Below, in pieces: positions 54,306 through 61,602 of a DNA stretch of 64,000 bases. Origin of the DNA: Enterococcus pallens ATCC BAA-351 (GTDB lineage: Bacteria; Bacillota; Bacilli; Lactobacillales; Enterococcaceae). The stretch's first letter is position 1. Each line of letters opens with the position of its first letter. The notes beneath the pieces are model-generated. The model was not told where the DNA came from. It saw nothing but the letters and a program-made list of their open reading frames with translations, and searched no databases. The stretch is from positions 124,001-188,000 of the forward strand of contig NZ_ASWD01000003.1 of assembly GCF_000407485.1 (NCBI RefSeq), given 5' to 3'. The position numbers and the translations under genes are program-made.

Positions 54306-55898
54306 TCATCCCACCTGCTTGTCTACCCCTTTACTAGTTCGATATTTTTCATCGGCAATTCTAGTTAATTGTTTTAACAGAAGCTCACAGCCTTGTGTTG
54401 ATTCTTGAGATTGAATCACTACAATTGGTACCCGTCTTGGCAAATTGAGAAGATTTCGTTTCGAAATCGCCATGTCTGAAATTATTAAATCTACCTCTTC
54501 ATTGAGCTCTTGAACAATTTCAATATAAAAATGACTAAAAATGTCATGCAGTCTTGTACTAAGCAAAAACTCTGGAGCTTTATGACTGAAAATCAACACT
54601 TTGATTTTTGGATGAAAGAACCGTTTATCTAATTCAAAAAATAGAATTTTATAATAGGCTGCGCAAACATATTCGACGAAGCCAACTTCAAAACCATTCT
54701 GCTTTTTGCTGTATTTCTCCATGATAATGCTATAAAATGAGCGTTCACGTTCATGATTTTCGTAAAATTCGAAGGGATGATAAACATAGAGGTCTAGTGC
54801 TTTTTGTTTTAAAAAATCAGCAAAAATAAGGATTTGGTAAAAAACAGCAATTAACCGACAAAAAATAGTGTTTCGCTCCTGATCTGAAAATGAGGACAGG
54901 GCATAGTGCTCAACATTTTGTACTTTTTCTTCTATTTGGCCGAGAAAATCTATTTCCTTTAGTACATTAGATCTTTTAAAAAACTGCGGAATTTCTTCGT
55001 CTTGATAACCTAAGCTATTACTTAACAAACAACTAATCAAAAAACGCGCTTCAATTGTCAATTCATTGGCAGGAATAGTTGGTACTTTTTGCCTCAACTG
55101 ATGAATAAATTGATTAAATATTAACTGTTCGCTATCAGAAGAAGGCTCCCAAAAATACTTATTTTCTGCTATAGTATTTTTTTGTGAGCGATACAGCGTA
55201 ATTGCGATCCCATAGTTAATCAGAGTAAAGCGAGTCGTAAACTTCTTATACAATACAGGTGACAAAATATCTAAAAGCTCGTAAATCTCAGGTAAATGAA
55301 TAAATCCAAACGGCCATTTATATCCTCCATAAACTTGCTGAAAGATTCCTGTATACAGCATTCTTATCGTTAGCTCGTCTCCCTCCAAGAAAATTTTCCG
55401 ATTGCTTCTTAAAAAAATATTATTGGCAAAATCTGCTATGTATGTTTTCAGGAATAGTAATTCCTTTTTCAGCGGAGAATATGCTATATCTAATTTCTTA
55501 GTAATTTCCCCAAGGGTCCATTTTCTTGATGACAGTAATAATGAGAATAGTTTAAAGCGCAGGGAATTCTCTAAATAATATAGCCGAATAAGGTCAATGG
55601 TAAAATCTTCTGACGTACTTATGTAAAGGTAATTTTGATTAGTGATTTGGGAAAGCTGCACTTGCTTCTCAATAGCCATTTCCTTAATATCCTGCCGAGC
55701 TTCAACAATTATTTTTTTTACTGTGGGATAAGATACATTTAAAATTTTCACGAACTCTTTAATATTTATTAGGGTATTTCGATTATGGAATAGATACTCC
55801 AATAGTAGATACCGTTTCTGATAATGTGTATCCATCAATTCTTTAACCACGAGAAAATCCCCCACTAAAAATAGCTGCTCTTTACTATCATCATACAT
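54306..55898 (-). CDS. Mga-family transcriptional regulator
   Basis: A 530-residue protein with an N-terminal HTH (about 28-70, INIKEFVKILNVSYPTVKKII), a second HTH (about 115-160, WTLGEITKKLDIAYSPLKKEL), a PRD-like middle and a C-terminal EIIB-like fold (about 435-520, KIKVLIFSHKAPEF). This is the Mga/AtxA architecture, whose activity is tuned by PTS phosphorylation. The AT-rich coding sequence differs somewhat from its neighbours. A long terminator separates it from the PTS operon, so its target is not settled by position. Confidence 0.88.
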   Translation of the reverse strand: MYDDSKEQLFLVGDFLVVKELMDTHYQKRYLLLEYLFHNRNTLINIKEFVKILNVSYPTVKKIIVEARQDIKEMAIEKQVQLSQITNQNYLYISTSEDFTIDLIRLYYLENSLRFKLFSLLLSSRKWTLGEITKKLDIAYSPLKKELLFLKTYIADFANNIFLRSNRKIFLEGDELTIRMLYTGIFQQVYGGYKWPFGFIHLPEIYELLDILSPVLYKKFTTRFTLINYGIAITLYRSQKNTIAENKYFWEPSSDSEQLIFNQFIHQLRQKVPTIPANELTIEARFLISCLLSNSLGYQDEEIPQFFKRSNVLKEIDFLGQIEEKVQNVEHYALSSFSDQERNTIFCRLIAVFYQILIFADFLKQKALDLYVYHPFEFYENHERERSFYSIIMEKYSKKQNGFEVGFVEYVCAAYYKILFFELDKRFFHPKIKVLIFSHKAPEFLLSTRLHDIFSHFYIEIVQELNEEVDLIISDMAISKRNLLNLPRRVPIVVIQSQESTQGCELLLKQLTRIADEKYRTSKGVDKQVG

Positions 55899-55982: not shown

Positions 55983-56046
55983 AGCTAAAAAATACTCATC
56001 CTTAAAGTCTTATCACAAGATAGTAGATAAGACTTTAAGAATGAGT
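55983..56046 (-). terminator. Terminator of the PTS operon
   Basis: A 21-bp stem (55994-56014 with 56026-56046, one mismatch) is followed on the minus strand by TTTTTT. It marks the end of the operon. Confidence 0.93.
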
Positions 56047-56063
56047 TCATTGATATTCGACAA

Positions 56064-56879
56064 TTATGCTTTCAAGTGCTTTACTGTTTCAATAATCTGC
56101 TGCAGTCGATTGGAGTCGCTGCCAAACCGACCAAGTAAGACTCCATCTAAATTTGCTTCTTTTATCATAGTGGCACTATTTTCTGGACTGACAGATCCAC
56201 CATATACGATCCTAATTTTTGAATTGGCATCCTCACCATATATTTTCGCAATTGCTTTCCGTATAAGCGTCGTAGCTAGTTTAATATGAGGAGTGCCTGC
56301 TGCTTTGCTTTTGCCGACTGCCCAGGCGGGTGTATAAGCAATAACTACTTTATCCAGATCTCTTTCATCGACACTATATAAACCATTGAAGATTCTCAAA
56401 AATAATTCGCGCTCTAACTCTCGTTCATAGTTTGGATATTTTGGCTCATCAATTACATTATCTGCATCTTTTTTCTCAAACTCTCCAACACACAAAATTG
56501 GGTGAATTCCTTTTTTTAGTGCCAATTGGATTTTCTGATTAATTACATCATCCGTTTCATTGTAGAGCTTTCTTCGTTCCCAGTGCCCTAATTCTACAAA
56601 AGTTCCATCCATATCAAGCAAGGATTCAATGGAAAACTCTCCACTCAATTCGCCCTTTTCGATGGGGGCAATATTCTGAGAACCGAGATGAATCGCTGTC
56701 TTTTTTAAAACCTCATGTACTGGATAAATCGTGCCCATTGAAGGCAAAATAACGATATCGATGTCTGTCTCAGTGTTTTGCTGTTCGCTAATTTGTTTGG
56801 CAAACTCTTTAGCTGCTTTGATATGATTCTGTCGCATGGACCAATTCATGATGACTAGTGGTCTTTTTTGCTTTGTCAT
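56064..56879 (-). CDS. TIM-like protein lacking catalytic Lys and Glu
   Basis: A 271-residue triosephosphate-isomerase-fold protein with GHWERR, HPILCVGE and VYGGSVSPEN in the family order. Of the three TIM catalytic residues only His99 remains. The NWK motif reads NWSM (Ser14 for Lys). The YEPVWAIG loop reads YTPAWAVG (Thr183 for the general-base Glu). The phosphate loop GGASL is also changed (LLGRFGSDS). The bases at these codons are clear (TCC, ACA). It is therefore unlikely to interconvert triose phosphates. It ends the PTS operon, 51 bp after the aldolase, and should act on an intermediate of that pathway. Confidence 0.85.
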   Translation of the reverse strand: MTKQKRPLVIMNWSMRQNHIKAAKEFAKQISEQQNTETDIDIVILPSMGTIYPVHEVLKKTAIHLGSQNIAPIEKGELSGEFSIESLLDMDGTFVELGHWERRKLYNETDDVINQKIQLALKKGIHPILCVGEFEKKDADNVIDEPKYPNYERELERELFLRIFNGLYSVDERDLDKVVIAYTPAWAVGKSKAAGTPHIKLATTLIRKAIAKIYGEDANSKIRIVYGGSVSPENSATMIKEANLDGVLLGRFGSDSNRLQQIIETVKHLKA

Positions 56880-56929: not shown

Positions 56930-57586
56930 CTAGTCGGCTTGATTGACAATCGCCATCATTTCCCTCGCATGTTCTTTGATCGTGTTGAAATCACCTGTTT
57001 TAATCAAATGTTTATCTGTCAAATATCCGCTAATGCCAGCTCCGCTGAATCCTAGCTCAAGATAATCTGGCAAGTTTTCCGGTGTAACACCAGCTGTAGC
57101 GATCAATTTAATATGGTTAATAGGTCCAAGAATATCCTTCACATACCCCATTCCCAACGCTCGGACAGGGAATAGTTTAACAAAGTCAGCTCCCGCCTCA
57201 TGTGCCGAAATAATTTCACTTGGTGAAAAGGCTCCTGGAATCGAAATCAGGTTTAACTCTTTGGTTTGCTTAATAACCTCAGGATTCGTATTAGGAGAAA
57301 TAATGTATTCTGCTCCTGCCTGATAAGCCGCTTGAACTTGTTGGATTGAAAGTACCGTACCAGCTCCAATTCTGACCTCTTCGCCAAATTCCTTAACCAA
57401 CAAGCTAATAGCCTCTGCGGTTTTAGTCAGGCATTCTGCATCACCTTGATCAAAGGTGACTTCAACTAGTTTTACGCCGCCTTCTTTTAGGGCGGAAACC
57501 AAATTAATTAGGTCTTCACCATAAGTTCCCCGACAGATAGCTATTACCTTATTCTTCTCAATAAACTCACAAATATCTTCCTTCAT
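56930..57586 (-). CDS. KDPG/KHG-type aldolase
   Basis: A 219-residue class I aldolase of the Eda family: VIAICRGTYGEDLINL, KLVEVTF with the catalytic Glu, IGAGTVLS, EYIISPNTN, and the Schiff-base Lys in DFVKLFPVRALG. It should cleave a 2-keto-3-deoxy sugar-acid 6-phosphate to pyruvate and an aldehyde phosphate. The Arg that usually follows the EVT motif is replaced (FDQG), hinting at a non-standard substrate. The ATG at 57586 shares its A with the EIIC stop codon (TAATG), so translation is coupled. Confidence 0.93.
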   Translation of the reverse strand: MKEDICEFIEKNKVIAICRGTYGEDLINLVSALKEGGVKLVEVTFDQGDAECLTKTAEAISLLVKEFGEEVRIGAGTVLSIQQVQAAYQAGAEYIISPNTNPEVIKQTKELNLISIPGAFSPSEIISAHEAGADFVKLFPVRALGMGYVKDILGPINHIKLIATAGVTPENLPDYLELGFSGAGISGYLTDKHLIKTGDFNTIKEHAREMMAIVNQAD

Positions 57587-58683
57587 TAAACCTTCTCCTT
57601 TGTTAGCTCTGTCATTTTCGCCTTTTTTACTTTTACTGGCGCTTCCTCTATCACTGGTTTTAAAAAGCCAAGAATTATTGCCGTAACTAAAGAACCGACT
57701 ATAATTGCAGCAATAAACCAGAGTTTGTTTTCTACTACCGGAAGAACCACAAATCCTCCGTGAGGAACATAACATTTCACATTTCCAATTGCACCAATCA
57801 CACAGCCTACTGCTGTACCAATCATTGACGAAGGCAAGATTCTTTTCATATCACTGACAACAAATGGAATGGCTCCTTCTGTAATACCAATACATCCCAT
57901 AATTCCAGCAGCTACTGCTGCATCGCGATCGCCTTCACTGAATTTCTTTTTAAAGAATAGTGTAGCCAAGAAGATCCCAATTGGAGGAATCGCTACCGCA
58001 ATTCGAAACATGCCATTTGGCTCGTAGATTCCTTCATTCATCAATGCTAAAGTGAACATTGAAACAGACTTAGTAATTGGTCCACCCATATCAACTTCGC
58101 CAAACAATCCGATAAATACAGCTAATAAAATCGCACTGCTTCCATTTAAGCTGCTCATGATGCTGGTTAATCCGTTCATTAAGAATGCCAGTGGAGTTGC
58201 TACAACATAAATATAGATTAGTCCTAGAACGAAAACGGAAATGGTTGGAATAATCAGGATTGGTAAAATGGTTTTTATGGTGCGGCTAACCTTCCACTTT
58301 TTCATCCATTTCACTAAATAACCTGCGGCTACCCCTAACAACATTGCTCCTAGAAAGCCTGACTTTACTTCTACTTGATTAATAGTTACCGGATTATTTG
58401 CCAGAAAACCTAAAATCATTCCTGGCGCTAAGCCGGGTTTACCGGCAATCGAATACGCAATATAACCGCCTAGAATCGGGATCATCATGGCAAAAGCCGA
58501 TTTACCTAATAAATTGATATTTTGCATTAATTCATTGGTTACAACTACTCCAGTATCACTTTTCTCGCCGGTAGCAAGGGAGATCGCCAACATAATTCCT
58601 CCAGCAACTACTGCTGGCATCATAAATGAAACACCACTTAGAAATGATTTTTGTACTTCTTTTAAGGTCGCCTTCACGTTCAT
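57586..58683 (-). CDS. PTS EIIC, fructose family
   Basis: A 365-residue membrane permease domain of a fructose-class phosphotransferase system, with about nine helices (GVSFMMPAVVAGGIMLAI, GYIAYSIAGKPGLAPGMILG, GEVDMGGPITKSV, GITEGAIPFVV). It transports and positions the sugar for phosphorylation by EIIB. The sugar is not readable; the aldolase next to it argues for a sugar acid or a sugar degraded through one. Confidence 0.93.
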   Translation of the reverse strand: MNVKATLKEVQKSFLSGVSFMMPAVVAGGIMLAISLATGEKSDTGVVVTNELMQNINLLGKSAFAMMIPILGGYIAYSIAGKPGLAPGMILGFLANNPVTINQVEVKSGFLGAMLLGVAAGYLVKWMKKWKVSRTIKTILPILIIPTISVFVLGLIYIYVVATPLAFLMNGLTSIMSSLNGSSAILLAVFIGLFGEVDMGGPITKSVSMFTLALMNEGIYEPNGMFRIAVAIPPIGIFLATLFFKKKFSEGDRDAAVAAGIMGCIGITEGAIPFVVSDMKRILPSSMIGTAVGCVIGAIGNVKCYVPHGGFVVLPVVENKLWFIAAIIVGSLVTAIILGFLKPVIEEAPVKVKKAKMTELTKEKV

Positions 58684-58702: not shown

Positions 58703-59014
58703 CTAGCTGTTCAATAATGCTTCGGCAGCGTCCAAGACTTTTCCAGGATAGGAAATAGCATCGTTCACGTCTGCATTCAGGACTAATTTATCTTCAAAAC
58801 GCTCTTCATTTTCAATAAAAACTGATACTGCTAAGATGACCACATCTGCCTCTTCCGCTTCATCTTCCGTCACTTCATTTTCGATTCCGATACTACCTTG
58901 TGTTTCAATTTTGATATCGTGTCCTCTTCTTTTTCCTTCTTTTTCCAATGCTTCCTGTGCCATATAAGTGTGAGCAACTCCTGTAGGACATGCGGATACT
59001 CCAACGATTTTCAT
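58703..59014 (-). CDS. PTS EIIB, fructose family
   Basis: A 103-residue EIIB with the phosphocysteine loop SACPTGVAHTYMAQEAL (Cys9) and ETQGSIG. It passes phosphate from EIIA to the sugar. Encoded separately from EIIA and EIIC, as is usual in the three-gene fructose-like clusters of enterococci. Confidence 0.95.
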   Translation of the reverse strand: MKIVGVSACPTGVAHTYMAQEALEKEGKRRGHDIKIETQGSIGIENEVTEDEAEEADVVILAVSVFIENEERFEDKLVLNADVNDAISYPGKVLDAAEALLNS

Positions 59015-59026
59015 AATAATTTCCTC

Positions 59027-59479
59027 CTAAATAATTTCTATTTTGTCTTCTACTTGTCGTAGTAAATTTGTAATCAACGTTTTATTTCCAGTTAACAAAT
59101 TGTTTCTAAACCCTTCATCCAAAAGCTTTTTGCTGATTTCAGCTAGGACCTTTAGATGGAACGTGCTCTGCTGGTCTTCAGGAATACCCAGCATAAAAAC
59201 TAACTCCACTGGTTTTCCAGTATTGTCCCATTGAATTGGCTGACGGGTTCTAAGAAAGCAAATAAATGGGTTAAGAACTTCCTTTGATTTTCCATGAGGA
59301 ATACTTACGTCATAGCCAATTGCCGTGGAAAACTCTTCTTCTCTTTTATTCACTGCTTCGATGTACCTGTCGCGATTACTTAAATAGCCAAGCTTCTTTG
59401 CCTGATCTGATAAATAATCAATAATCGATTTTTTATTGTTTAACGTTGAATCTAAAACAATCAAATCTTCATCAATCAA
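59027..59479 (-). CDS. PTS EIIA, fructose/mannitol family
   Basis: A 150-residue EIIA of the PTS EIIA-2 family. The active His lies in VSIPHGKSKEV and the LVFMLGIPEDQQSTFHLKVLAEIS block follows. It accepts phosphate from HPr. Its start overlaps the end of the regulator gene by 8 bp, so the two are translated together. Confidence 0.94.
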   Translation of the reverse strand: MIDEDLIVLDSTLNNKKSIIDYLSDQAKKLGYLSNRDRYIEAVNKREEEFSTAIGYDVSIPHGKSKEVLNPFICFLRTRQPIQWDNTGKPVELVFMLGIPEDQQSTFHLKVLAEISKKLLDEGFRNNLLTGNKTLITNLLRQVEDKIEII

Positions 59480-61433
59480 TTGCTTCTCCTCCTAGTATGC
59501 TCATTAATTCTTGTTTTGTTTTGCCTAAAATAGTTTTGTCCACATTTCTCTTAGATTCAACAATTCGATATATTTCTGAAAGAATTCCTTTAATATCTTT
59601 TAGATCTTTTTCCGCCACACAGATCATCAACACTGTATTAATCATCCGAAGGTTCCAGCGAATGGGTTTAGCTACTGTCATAATTACTAACTTGCTTTCT
59701 TTGACAGTTGATGGAGCTGGGTGAGGAATAGCTACCCCAGTAGGAAGATCGGTTGCTCCTAGTTTTTCACGGTCCCAAATCGCTTGTTCAAAGGACTCGG
59801 TAACTAAATCCGCTTGTAAGAGTGCCTTGGTAATCTTTCGTATACATTGTTCCTTTGAGGTGATCGTTTCATTTAAGAAAATGACCTCTTCATCTAATAT
59901 TTTGCCGAGGTACTCAAAAGGCTGATCCAGTTGCTCTTCTTCTTCGTAAAATAAATTCAAATATTTCTCTGAAACCTTAATCAAATCCTGTTTACTCATT
60001 AAAGGTGAAACATAGGTTACTGGGACCTTCATTTTTTCCAATTGAACGGAAGAAATAATCAGGTCGATCTTACTCAGATCCCGTTTATATAAGGTGCGTA
60101 ATGAAACGACCTCAACAATATCTTGGTGAGAAAATACTTTCTTCAAGCGATTGGCAATTAACTCGGAGGTTCCGATACCAGTCGGACATACAATCAATAT
60201 TTTCTTATTAGAGCTGGCTCGATCAATCGCTCCTTGAAAATGAATCATCATGAAAGCCACCTCATCCTCAGTTAAGCGAATATCCAACTCTTTTTCAATC
60301 CCTGTTAGTATTAACCAAGTTGTGCTGTATAAAACCGAATATTCACGCTTTATTTCCGCTAATAGCGGATTAGTAACTGGAACATTCAGTTTATGGCGAT
60401 AAATCATTGATACTAAATGGTACAGGACATTTGTATAAAGCTTATCGTCTTTGGTTAAATCAATTTGAGTTGAATCACTCATTTCCTGAATCATTTTCTT
60501 TACTAGCGCGTCGTATTCATCTTGAATCGCCAGATCATTCAGTCTAGGTTCAAATCCGTGAGCCACCAATTGACGATTTAAAAATTCAAAATCATTGGAA
60601 GTAAGTGTGATGCTTTCGTCAAAATCAAGCTGTTCCACCAATTCATTTGCTAAAAAGAAAGTCTTTAACGACTCAATATTTTCAAATAGGAAATTGTCTT
60701 GCCTTTCAATATGAAACCCTCGATGCAGCCGATAAATGAAAATACTGATGGATAGTACTAAGGATTGAAAATGCGTATCTGATAATCTATCCACATTAAA
60801 ATGATCATTTTTTTGCAATAGCTTGGAGGTTTTTTTGACTATATCCTCTGGTAAAAAGCGAAACAGCAATCTTGGAAATTGAATTCTAAAGCTATTAGTC
60901 AGGTCTGACTTGTCCATGATAAAATACGCATATTGTTTAATCGCCTTTTGTATTTCAGATTCCTTGCCAACCAGTGTTGTTCCATTGCTGTCGGAATGAA
61001 TAGCAGCAGAACTTCCTTCAATAACTGTCTGGATTTGATCTAAATCATTGGAGATCGAACTTTTGCTGACTAAAAATTCCTCGGATAACTGTTGATAAGA
61101 CACTCGTTTACTTTGCAGCAGCAAATATTCAGCAATTTTCATCTGACGTTCCAGCGGAAACTGGTTAAAGTCAATTGGCTTGGATACTTCCCCGAAGCTT
61201 TTCAGTATTTCATCATTGGATACTACTGAATGACTGATACAGATGCCTTTTCTTGGTTTTTTTAAAATCTGAACTTCTTTTTCCTTCAGCTGTACATTCA
61301 ATTCATCGATATCTTTGTATAACGTTCGATCGGAGATAGATAAAATCTTGGAGTAATGATTTACCGGTAAAAAATCTTTTTGCTCCAGCAGCAGTCGTAA
61401 TAATTGATGCTGACGTTTACTTATTTCATGCAT
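59472..61433 (-). CDS. BglG/MtlR-type PRD transcriptional activator
   Basis: A 653-residue regulator with HTH_11 (about 5-60), an Mga-type HTH (about 75-140), two PRD domains (about 170-385), an EIIB-like domain with phosphocysteine (KILIVCPTGIGTSELIANR) and an EIIA-2 domain with His in TGVAIPHPAP. PTS phosphorylation of these sites would set its activity by sugar supply and catabolite state. The ATG at 61433 follows GGGGAGGAG. As the first gene of the operon it most likely activates the same operon. Confidence 0.94.
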   Translation of the reverse strand: MHEISKRQHQLLRLLLEQKDFLPVNHYSKILSISDRTLYKDIDELNVQLKEKEVQILKKPRKGICISHSVVSNDEILKSFGEVSKPIDFNQFPLERQMKIAEYLLLQSKRVSYQQLSEEFLVSKSSISNDLDQIQTVIEGSSAAIHSDSNGTTLVGKESEIQKAIKQYAYFIMDKSDLTNSFRIQFPRLLFRFLPEDIVKKTSKLLQKNDHFNVDRLSDTHFQSLVLSISIFIYRLHRGFHIERQDNFLFENIESLKTFFLANELVEQLDFDESITLTSNDFEFLNRQLVAHGFEPRLNDLAIQDEYDALVKKMIQEMSDSTQIDLTKDDKLYTNVLYHLVSMIYRHKLNVPVTNPLLAEIKREYSVLYSTTWLILTGIEKELDIRLTEDEVAFMMIHFQGAIDRASSNKKILIVCPTGIGTSELIANRLKKVFSHQDIVEVVSLRTLYKRDLSKIDLIISSVQLEKMKVPVTYVSPLMSKQDLIKVSEKYLNLFYEEEEQLDQPFEYLGKILDEEVIFLNETITSKEQCIRKITKALLQADLVTESFEQAIWDREKLGATDLPTGVAIPHPAPSTVKESKLVIMTVAKPIRWNLRMINTVLMICVAEKDLKDIKGILSEIYRIVESKRNVDKTILGKTKQELMSILGGEAID

Positions 61434-61449
61434 GCTTTTCTCCTCCCCA

Positions 61450-61463
61450 GGAAGCGCTTCCTT
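61450..61463. promoter_or_regulatory. cre-like palindrome before the PTS operon
   Basis: AGGAAGCGCTTCCT, a perfect palindrome with the central AAGCGCTT of CcpA sites, directly before the ribosome binding site of the regulator gene. It suggests carbon catabolite repression of the operon. The flanking T/A of the consensus is missing. Confidence 0.55.
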
Positions 61464-61602
61464 GTATATGTAATTTATCATGCAAATTCAGTTTTGCCTA
61501 TCACATCTCGTTTCAAGATTATTCCTGAACTTTCCTAAACAATTCAATAAATGGGCTGAATTCTGGGATTGTATTAAAAATAGCTGATTTGTTTTGGACA
61601 AT

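Follow-up and report, generated by a model that had tools for sequence, protein, structure and literature searches.

Triosephosphate isomerase (TIM) is the textbook example of a perfect enzyme, with an active site of Lys, His and Glu (Lys12, His95 and Glu165) that is treated as invariant. The enzyme is a dimer, and Glu97 is the usual neighbour of the catalytic lysine, with which it is in contact. The TIM-like proteins of the LerI/EryH type are tetrulose-phosphate isomerases (L-erythrulose-1-phosphate isomerase). According to one report, LerI and DerI together convert L-erythrulose-1-phosphate to erythrose-4-phosphate (PMC10733421). In what follows, ‘LerI-like’ is our name for relatives that keep the Lys, His and Glu (K/H/E) and lie in operons with DhaK, DhaL, RpiB and TalC. 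An annotated K/H/E operon on plasmid pCR1A of Enterococcus gilvus comprises rpiB, fsa, TIM, dhaM, two genes for hypothetical proteins, dhaK, dhaL and two transketolase genes, and an annotated operon of the same kind is seen in Listeria. We infer that the operons of this kind described below run the route from L-erythrulose-1-phosphate to erythrose-4-phosphate. Among the matches listed in our literature search, no paper dealt with a TIM homologue lacking both the Lys and the Glu. Below, we describe such a protein from Enterococcus pallens ATCC BAA-351.

The stretch of DNA analysed, here called the window, is 64,000 nucleotides long (contig NZ_ASWD01000003.1, positions 124,001 to 188,000). On its minus strand, at 56064..56879 and from an ATG start codon, it encodes a TIM-fold protein of 271 amino acids (here TIM*), with S14, H99, W100, E101, T183 and G250-R251 at the positions of interest. 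The Pfam TIM model (PF00121) matches residues 7-265 with 187.7 bits, which places the protein in the TIM family. The NCBIfam model TIGR00419 gives 104.6 bits, below its curated cut-off of 130.6, and gives 185 bits for the TpiA of the same genome. This cut-off is a weak discriminator, since three K/H/E LerI-like proteins score 127.7 and 121.5 (below 130.6) and 132.5 (above it). The LerI-like proteins scanned matched just the general TIM models of NCBIfam.

Where TIM has its catalytic Lys12, TIM* has Ser14 (in NWSM), and where TIM has the general base Glu165 it has Thr183 (in AYTPAWAVG). The catalytic His95 has its counterpart in His99 (in GHWERR), and the GGSV phosphate loop is retained. On re-reading of the sequence, both substitutions and both retained elements are as the initial annotation had described them. 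The altered phosphate loop that it also reported is real, the final loop being GR instead of GG, though an arginine is likewise found here in all 34 of the LerI-like relatives read, which keep K/H/E; thus, the GR loop is not special to TIM*. In addition, Trp100 occupies the place of TIM Ser96, Arg16 is present, and Ser254 stands where LerI-like relatives carry His.

TIM* belongs to an operon whose order, judged from spacing and strand, is regulator, EIIA, EIIB, EIIC, Eda-type aldolase, TIM*, all on the minus strand. The first gene is probably that of the HTH/PRD/EIIB/EIIA transcriptional regulator (59472..61481; Pfam HTH_11, PRD, PTS_IIB and PTS_EIIA_2), for which comparison with homologues and the sequence itself make the ATG at 61433 the likelier start. 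It is followed by genes for three components of a fructose-family PTS, namely EIIA (59027..59479; TIGR00848, 119.1 bits against a cut-off of 103.5), EIIB (58703..59014; TIGR00829, 103.5 bits against 76.85) and EIIC (57586..58683; TIGR01427, 274.9 bits against 157.55). The ATG of the Eda-type (KDPG/KHG) aldolase gene overlaps the EIIC stop codon (TAATG); the product has 218 amino acids (56930..57586) and scores 165.3 bits with TIGR01182 against a cut-off of 156.05, the scan having used the slightly longer stretch 56930-57598. TIM* is probably the operon's last gene, because a long, terminator-like hairpin and then a T run follow directly 3′ of its stop codon on the same strand (55994..56046). 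The hairpin has a folding energy of −31.8 kcal/mol (z −8.0), which none of 200 shuffles equalled; it is not among the sites of a simple terminator scan, the total of which (five) compares with 5.0 in shuffles. Promoter-like sites are not in excess (20 found against 27.3 in shuffles). A perfect palindrome, GGAAGCGCTTCC, lies at 61450-61461, directly ahead of the likely start of the regulator gene, and resembles the core of a catabolite-control site, with mismatches to the consensus at several positions. Just past the hairpin, on the same strand, is a second Mga-like regulator gene (54306-55898; 530 amino acids).

An AlphaFold2 model of TIM* made with four sequences is a TIM barrel (pLDDT 78.6, pTM 0.85) in which loop 6 (residues 187-191) is uncertain. 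The best-listed solved fold is a triosephosphate isomerase (Z 27.9, rmsd 2.4 over 243 residues), and the best 50 matches listed in each fold search are all triosephosphate isomerases, some of them engineered or reconstructed variants.

The source genome (G000) has six TIM homologues at E values up to 0.001: one canonical, three of the Ser-Thr (S-T) form and two short. The canonical tpiA sits between pgk and eno and encodes NWKM, GHSERR and AYEP; its product is 32% identical to TIM*. The S-T proteins, in which the three positions read S, W and T, are TIM* itself and the paralogues L002 (58% identical to it) and L004 (75%). The genes for the short homologues (232 amino acids, L005:1477-2175, contig C1; 224 amino acids, L006:1444-2118, contig C2) adjoin genes that look like those of class II ketose-bisphosphate aldolases. 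These two proteins share with TIM* the TIM family and sugar-metabolism surroundings but, at 224-232 amino acids and about 20% identity, they keep Lys, His and Glu (NPKSY/SPKSY, NHAER/NHMEH and CEP). A further TIM with a TpiA-like score (320-324 bits) is present in all eight genomes checked, its residues having been read in the source genome. This bears out the earlier view that TIM* is not a spare TpiA, and that candidate was rejected. The genome G020 has just one canonical-scoring TIM homologue besides its S-T copy. No LerI-like gene was found among the TIM homologues of either the source genome or G020.

The distribution of the form with Ser or Ala at residue 14 and Thr at 183 (S/A-T) was surveyed by profile searches at five levels: genus (20 genomes), family (105 genomes) and samples of the order (395), the class (398) and the phylum (398). 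Residues were read for matches better than 1e-40 (genus), 1e-50 (family), 1e-60 (order), 1e-65 (class) and 1e-60 (phylum), with at most six candidates per genome scored in the last two samples. The form occurs in six of the genus genomes, in eight of the family genomes (those six included) and in four from the order sample, two of them new. Outside the source genome, no members were found in the class or phylum samples at 1e-65 and 1e-60, respectively. In total, ten genomes, all of one order, contribute 14 distinct sequences; the presence of identical substitutions in all of them led us to reject chance or sequencing error. T183, W100, H99 and E101 are found in 14 of 14 and Arg16 in 13, residue 14 is Ser in seven and Ala in seven, and none of the matches listed has an internal stop. 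The other 41 homologues in our residue table of 55 rows, from which the short L005 and L006 (read apart) are left out, all keep Lys, His and Glu; they comprise 34 LerI-like and seven canonical proteins. The initial annotation had taken LerI and EryH to keep all three residues; the 34 LerI-like relatives do so. We looked for wide, independent occurrence in the phylum and saw none at these thresholds. A search with the exact DNA pattern for AYTPxWA(I/V)G, to which some A-type members (L012, L014 and L015 among them) would be invisible, matched only the source genome (three sites) amongst 398 Bacillota genomes. A scan of genome contigs with two narrow peptide patterns, which is not a census, gave three loci, all in Enterococcus sp. 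665A.

The surroundings differ between the S-type and A-type loci. The seven S-type loci come from three genomes and are therefore not seven independent cases. All seven have a PTS, a class I aldolase (Eda in five, DeoC in two) and, in the operon or next to it, a PTS-linked regulator. This regulator is of the PRD or the LevR type, the domains having been identified in one example of each; TalC is present in five and transketolase in two. The seven A-type loci come from seven genomes and contain DhaK with DhaL in six cases, RpiB in six and TalC in five. Six of them have a K/H/E LerI-like gene no more than about 5 kb away, directly adjacent in two cases; the seventh locus, L070, begins at a contig end. 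Eda was not found in any of the seven A-type loci and, given its presence in five of the seven S-type loci, the link to Eda is not universal. None of the seven S-type loci, and no part of the window, yielded RpiB or DhaKL. TalC scores 300.3 bits, above the cut-off of the fsa/talC model (245.95); with Glu and Phe where FSA has Gln and Tyr, it looks like a transaldolase, and erythrose-4-phosphate would then be one of its substrates. The one RpiB scanned scores 126.9 bits, below the cut-off of 240 for the DerI model.

Some further features of these loci are of interest in their own right. In the cluster at L068:8816-15220, the two TIM forms are next to each other; it also encodes a kinase resembling D-threonate kinase (182.7 bits, short of a cut-off of 450) and a dehydrogenase of the PdxA type, which at 525.8 bits exceeds its cut-off of 470, and it is perhaps a four-carbon acid route sharing tetrulose-phosphate enzymes. 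A single ORF of 402 amino acids at L069:6651-7859 matches both the DhaL and the RpiB of neighbours, and is probably a fusion of kinase subunit and isomerase. Pairs of small proteins are encoded between a dhaM-type gene and dhaK in operons of the tetrulose-phosphate type: at L071:6627-7396, where both members match DUF6905, and, similar by position and size and annotated as hypothetical, at L075:13190-13978 and L080:6517-7305. Such pairs might serve to take up dihydroxyacetone or erythrulose.

A tree was made from 47 of the 55 rows, eight similar rows of genus g23 being dropped and the trait columns 14, 16, 100 and 183 excluded. The 14 S/A-T sequences form one side of a branch (support 99/95; recovered in 98% of 200 bootstrap trees), and the LerI-like rows together with the S/A-T clade separate from canonical TpiA at 100/98. 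Whether the clade is nested within the LerI-like rows or sister to them is weakly resolved; long branches lead to L076 (a Rhizobium row) and L045. The tree that the initial annotation had called for thus groups the sequence with other S/T forms beside PTS-Eda genes, and its proposal of a distinct TIM-family branch stands, in the shape of a single clade in which the substitutions are fixed. Lys and Glu are retained in each of the two neighbouring groups, so that one episode of loss, on the stem of the clade, is the simplest account.

Estimates of dN/dS were attempted for 14 pairs, of which seven, including both pairs with the window gene, were synonymously saturated and gave no ratio. Of the five clade pairs that gave one, two with dS under 1 had 0.06 and 0.11; three with high dS gave 0.05, 0.09 and 0.18, the last being one distant A-type pair. 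Conservation was also examined in a pocket set of 17 columns, drawn from general knowledge of TIM and chosen after the motifs had been seen, with L076 dropped and 25 LerI-like rows used. In the S/A-T clade the pocket has a mean entropy of 0.31, where the full set of 255 columns averages 1.18, and the LerI-like group is much alike (0.24 against 1.46); none of 20000 random column sets was as low in either group. Besides the change of Lys to Ser or Ala and the presence of Trp100, the clade and the LerI-like group are fixed differently at residue 16 (Arg against Tyr), 183 (Thr against Glu) and 254 (Ser against His). We take these three positions and residue 14 to lie in or beside the TIM active site. 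The gains in the clade's pocket are Arg, Trp, Thr and Ser, with no new conserved carboxylate or Lys amongst them. Gly189 of loop 6 is lost in two of the 14 members, and Ser229 of loop 7 is Thr in three and Ala in one, so that the phosphate contacts are not kept identically across the clade. Dimer loop 3 varies somewhat less than the average column (entropy 0.85 against 1.18). The pattern looks like remodelling, not decay.

What TIM* does can be proposed only tentatively. The reading we favour, which falls a little short of an even chance, is that it is a sugar-phosphate protein derived from a LerI-like isomerase and now catalysing a different step. It would have arisen once from a LerI-like ketose-phosphate isomerase on the TIM barrel, the electrophilic Lys becoming Ser or Ala and the general-base Glu becoming Thr, with His99, Glu101 and most of the phosphate loops retained; such a protein would be incapable of the enediol proton transfer for which TIM and LerI use Lys and Glu. 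It would most likely bind a phosphorylated C4 sugar (perhaps C3-C6) linked to an aldolase or transaldolase step, in a pocket remodelled by a small residue 14, Trp100, Arg16, Thr183 and Ser254. The different reaction would use His99 and Glu101, possibly with Arg16, as the remaining polar groups; residue 14, being Ser in half of the clade and Ala in the other half, would not itself be a catalytic group. In the window's operon, TIM* is the sole gene besides those for the PTS, the regulator and Eda, and its step would consequently fall directly before or directly after that of the aldolase. That it would act on a product of the neighbouring PTS and aldolase, as the initial annotation proposed, is plausible. 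A more specific version, in which His99, Glu101, Arg16 and Thr183 give the TIM scaffold a new activity that feeds or follows Eda, DeoC or TalC in PTS operons (for example epimerisation, dehydration or retro-aldol cleavage of a C4-C6 sugar phosphate), is a serious but still doubtful proposition. Alternatively, TIM* might bind a sugar phosphate without turnover, as a sensor, a carrier or an allosteric subunit for the aldolase, the transaldolase or the operon's transcription factor. Pseudoenzymes are known in many enzyme families, and here the catalytic residues are lost with the fold, the conserved pocket and the constraint retained. Gains of Arg, Trp, Thr and Ser, without an acid or base, would be no less expected of a binder than of an enzyme and, because no replacement base has been gained, we regard a pseudoenzyme as nearly as likely as an enzyme. 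However, a PRD- or LevR-type regulator is already in or beside all seven S-type operons, TIM* is the only candidate in the window's operon for a step besides the aldolase, and three operon-specific copies per genome exceed the need of a shared sensor. A pseudoenzyme is quite possible, though we would not bet on it, and a re-purposed enzyme is slightly preferred.

The remaining explanations are less attractive. Arg16 with a water molecule, or Thr183 with His99, might replace Lys and Glu and leave a (slower) TIM or LerI activity: Arg16, kept in all but one of the clade, lies two residues past the lost Lys, Glu101 stays, and Glu165 mutants of TIM retain traces of activity. Yet the loss of either Lys12 or Glu165 is enough to impair TIM severely, and a slow copy would add little where a canonical-scoring TpiA (all eight genomes checked) or a LerI-like gene (six of the seven A-type loci) is at hand, which makes a surviving isomerase improbable. 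A slightly poorer prospect still is that the S/A-T form heterodimerises with, and modulates, a LerI-like (K/H/E) or TpiA subunit, as the dimeric state of TIM, the nearby LerI-like gene in those six A-type loci and the somewhat higher conservation of dimer loop 3 might suggest. The source genome, with one canonical, three S-T and two short homologues, has no LerI-like gene; G020 has a single canonical-scoring TIM besides its S-T copy, so that a LerI partner is not needed there; and a TpiA partner would leave the operon-specific copies unexplained. A heterodimer with LerI was accordingly rejected as a general explanation, there being no LerI-like gene in G000 or G020. It could also be argued that these are spare TpiA or LerI copies decaying under relaxed constraint, since lost catalytic residues alone could resemble decay and the window gene's own dN/dS is not measurable, its pairs being saturated. 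The same substitutions in 14 divergent sequences, the conserved pocket, the ratios of 0.06 and 0.11 for those close pairs that could be measured and the lack of stops inside any listed match speak strongly against this; decay is very improbable and was rejected.

A natural clade of single origin that has lost two of the three residues, with its pocket conserved, makes it possible to test how the active site of TIM is re-purposed. The test is aided by the fact that, in several genomes, a relative with the ancestral residues shares an operon with the S/A-T form. The findings suggest that automatic annotation errs in kind when it labels such genes triose-phosphate isomerase, and they flag uncharacterised PTS pathways (with Eda or DeoC, and often TalC) in enterococci and their relatives.

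With TpiA, TIM* has in common the fold, the His95/Glu97 region, the GGS phosphate loop and dimer loop 3, but it is without the catalytic Lys, the Glu and the GG of loop 8. With the LerI-like isomerases it shares a place in the TIM tree, on a branch that excludes canonical TpiA, the GR of loop 8 (14 of 14 clade members and 34 of 34 LerI-like proteins) and a Glu before Gly-His (VELGH), and the A-type members are housed in the same operons. The LerI-like proteins differ in keeping Lys, His and Glu without exception (34 of 34), whereas none of the 14 clade members keeps Lys or Glu, and in having Tyr16 (25 of 25) and His254 (24 of 25) where the TIM* clade has Arg16 and Ser254.
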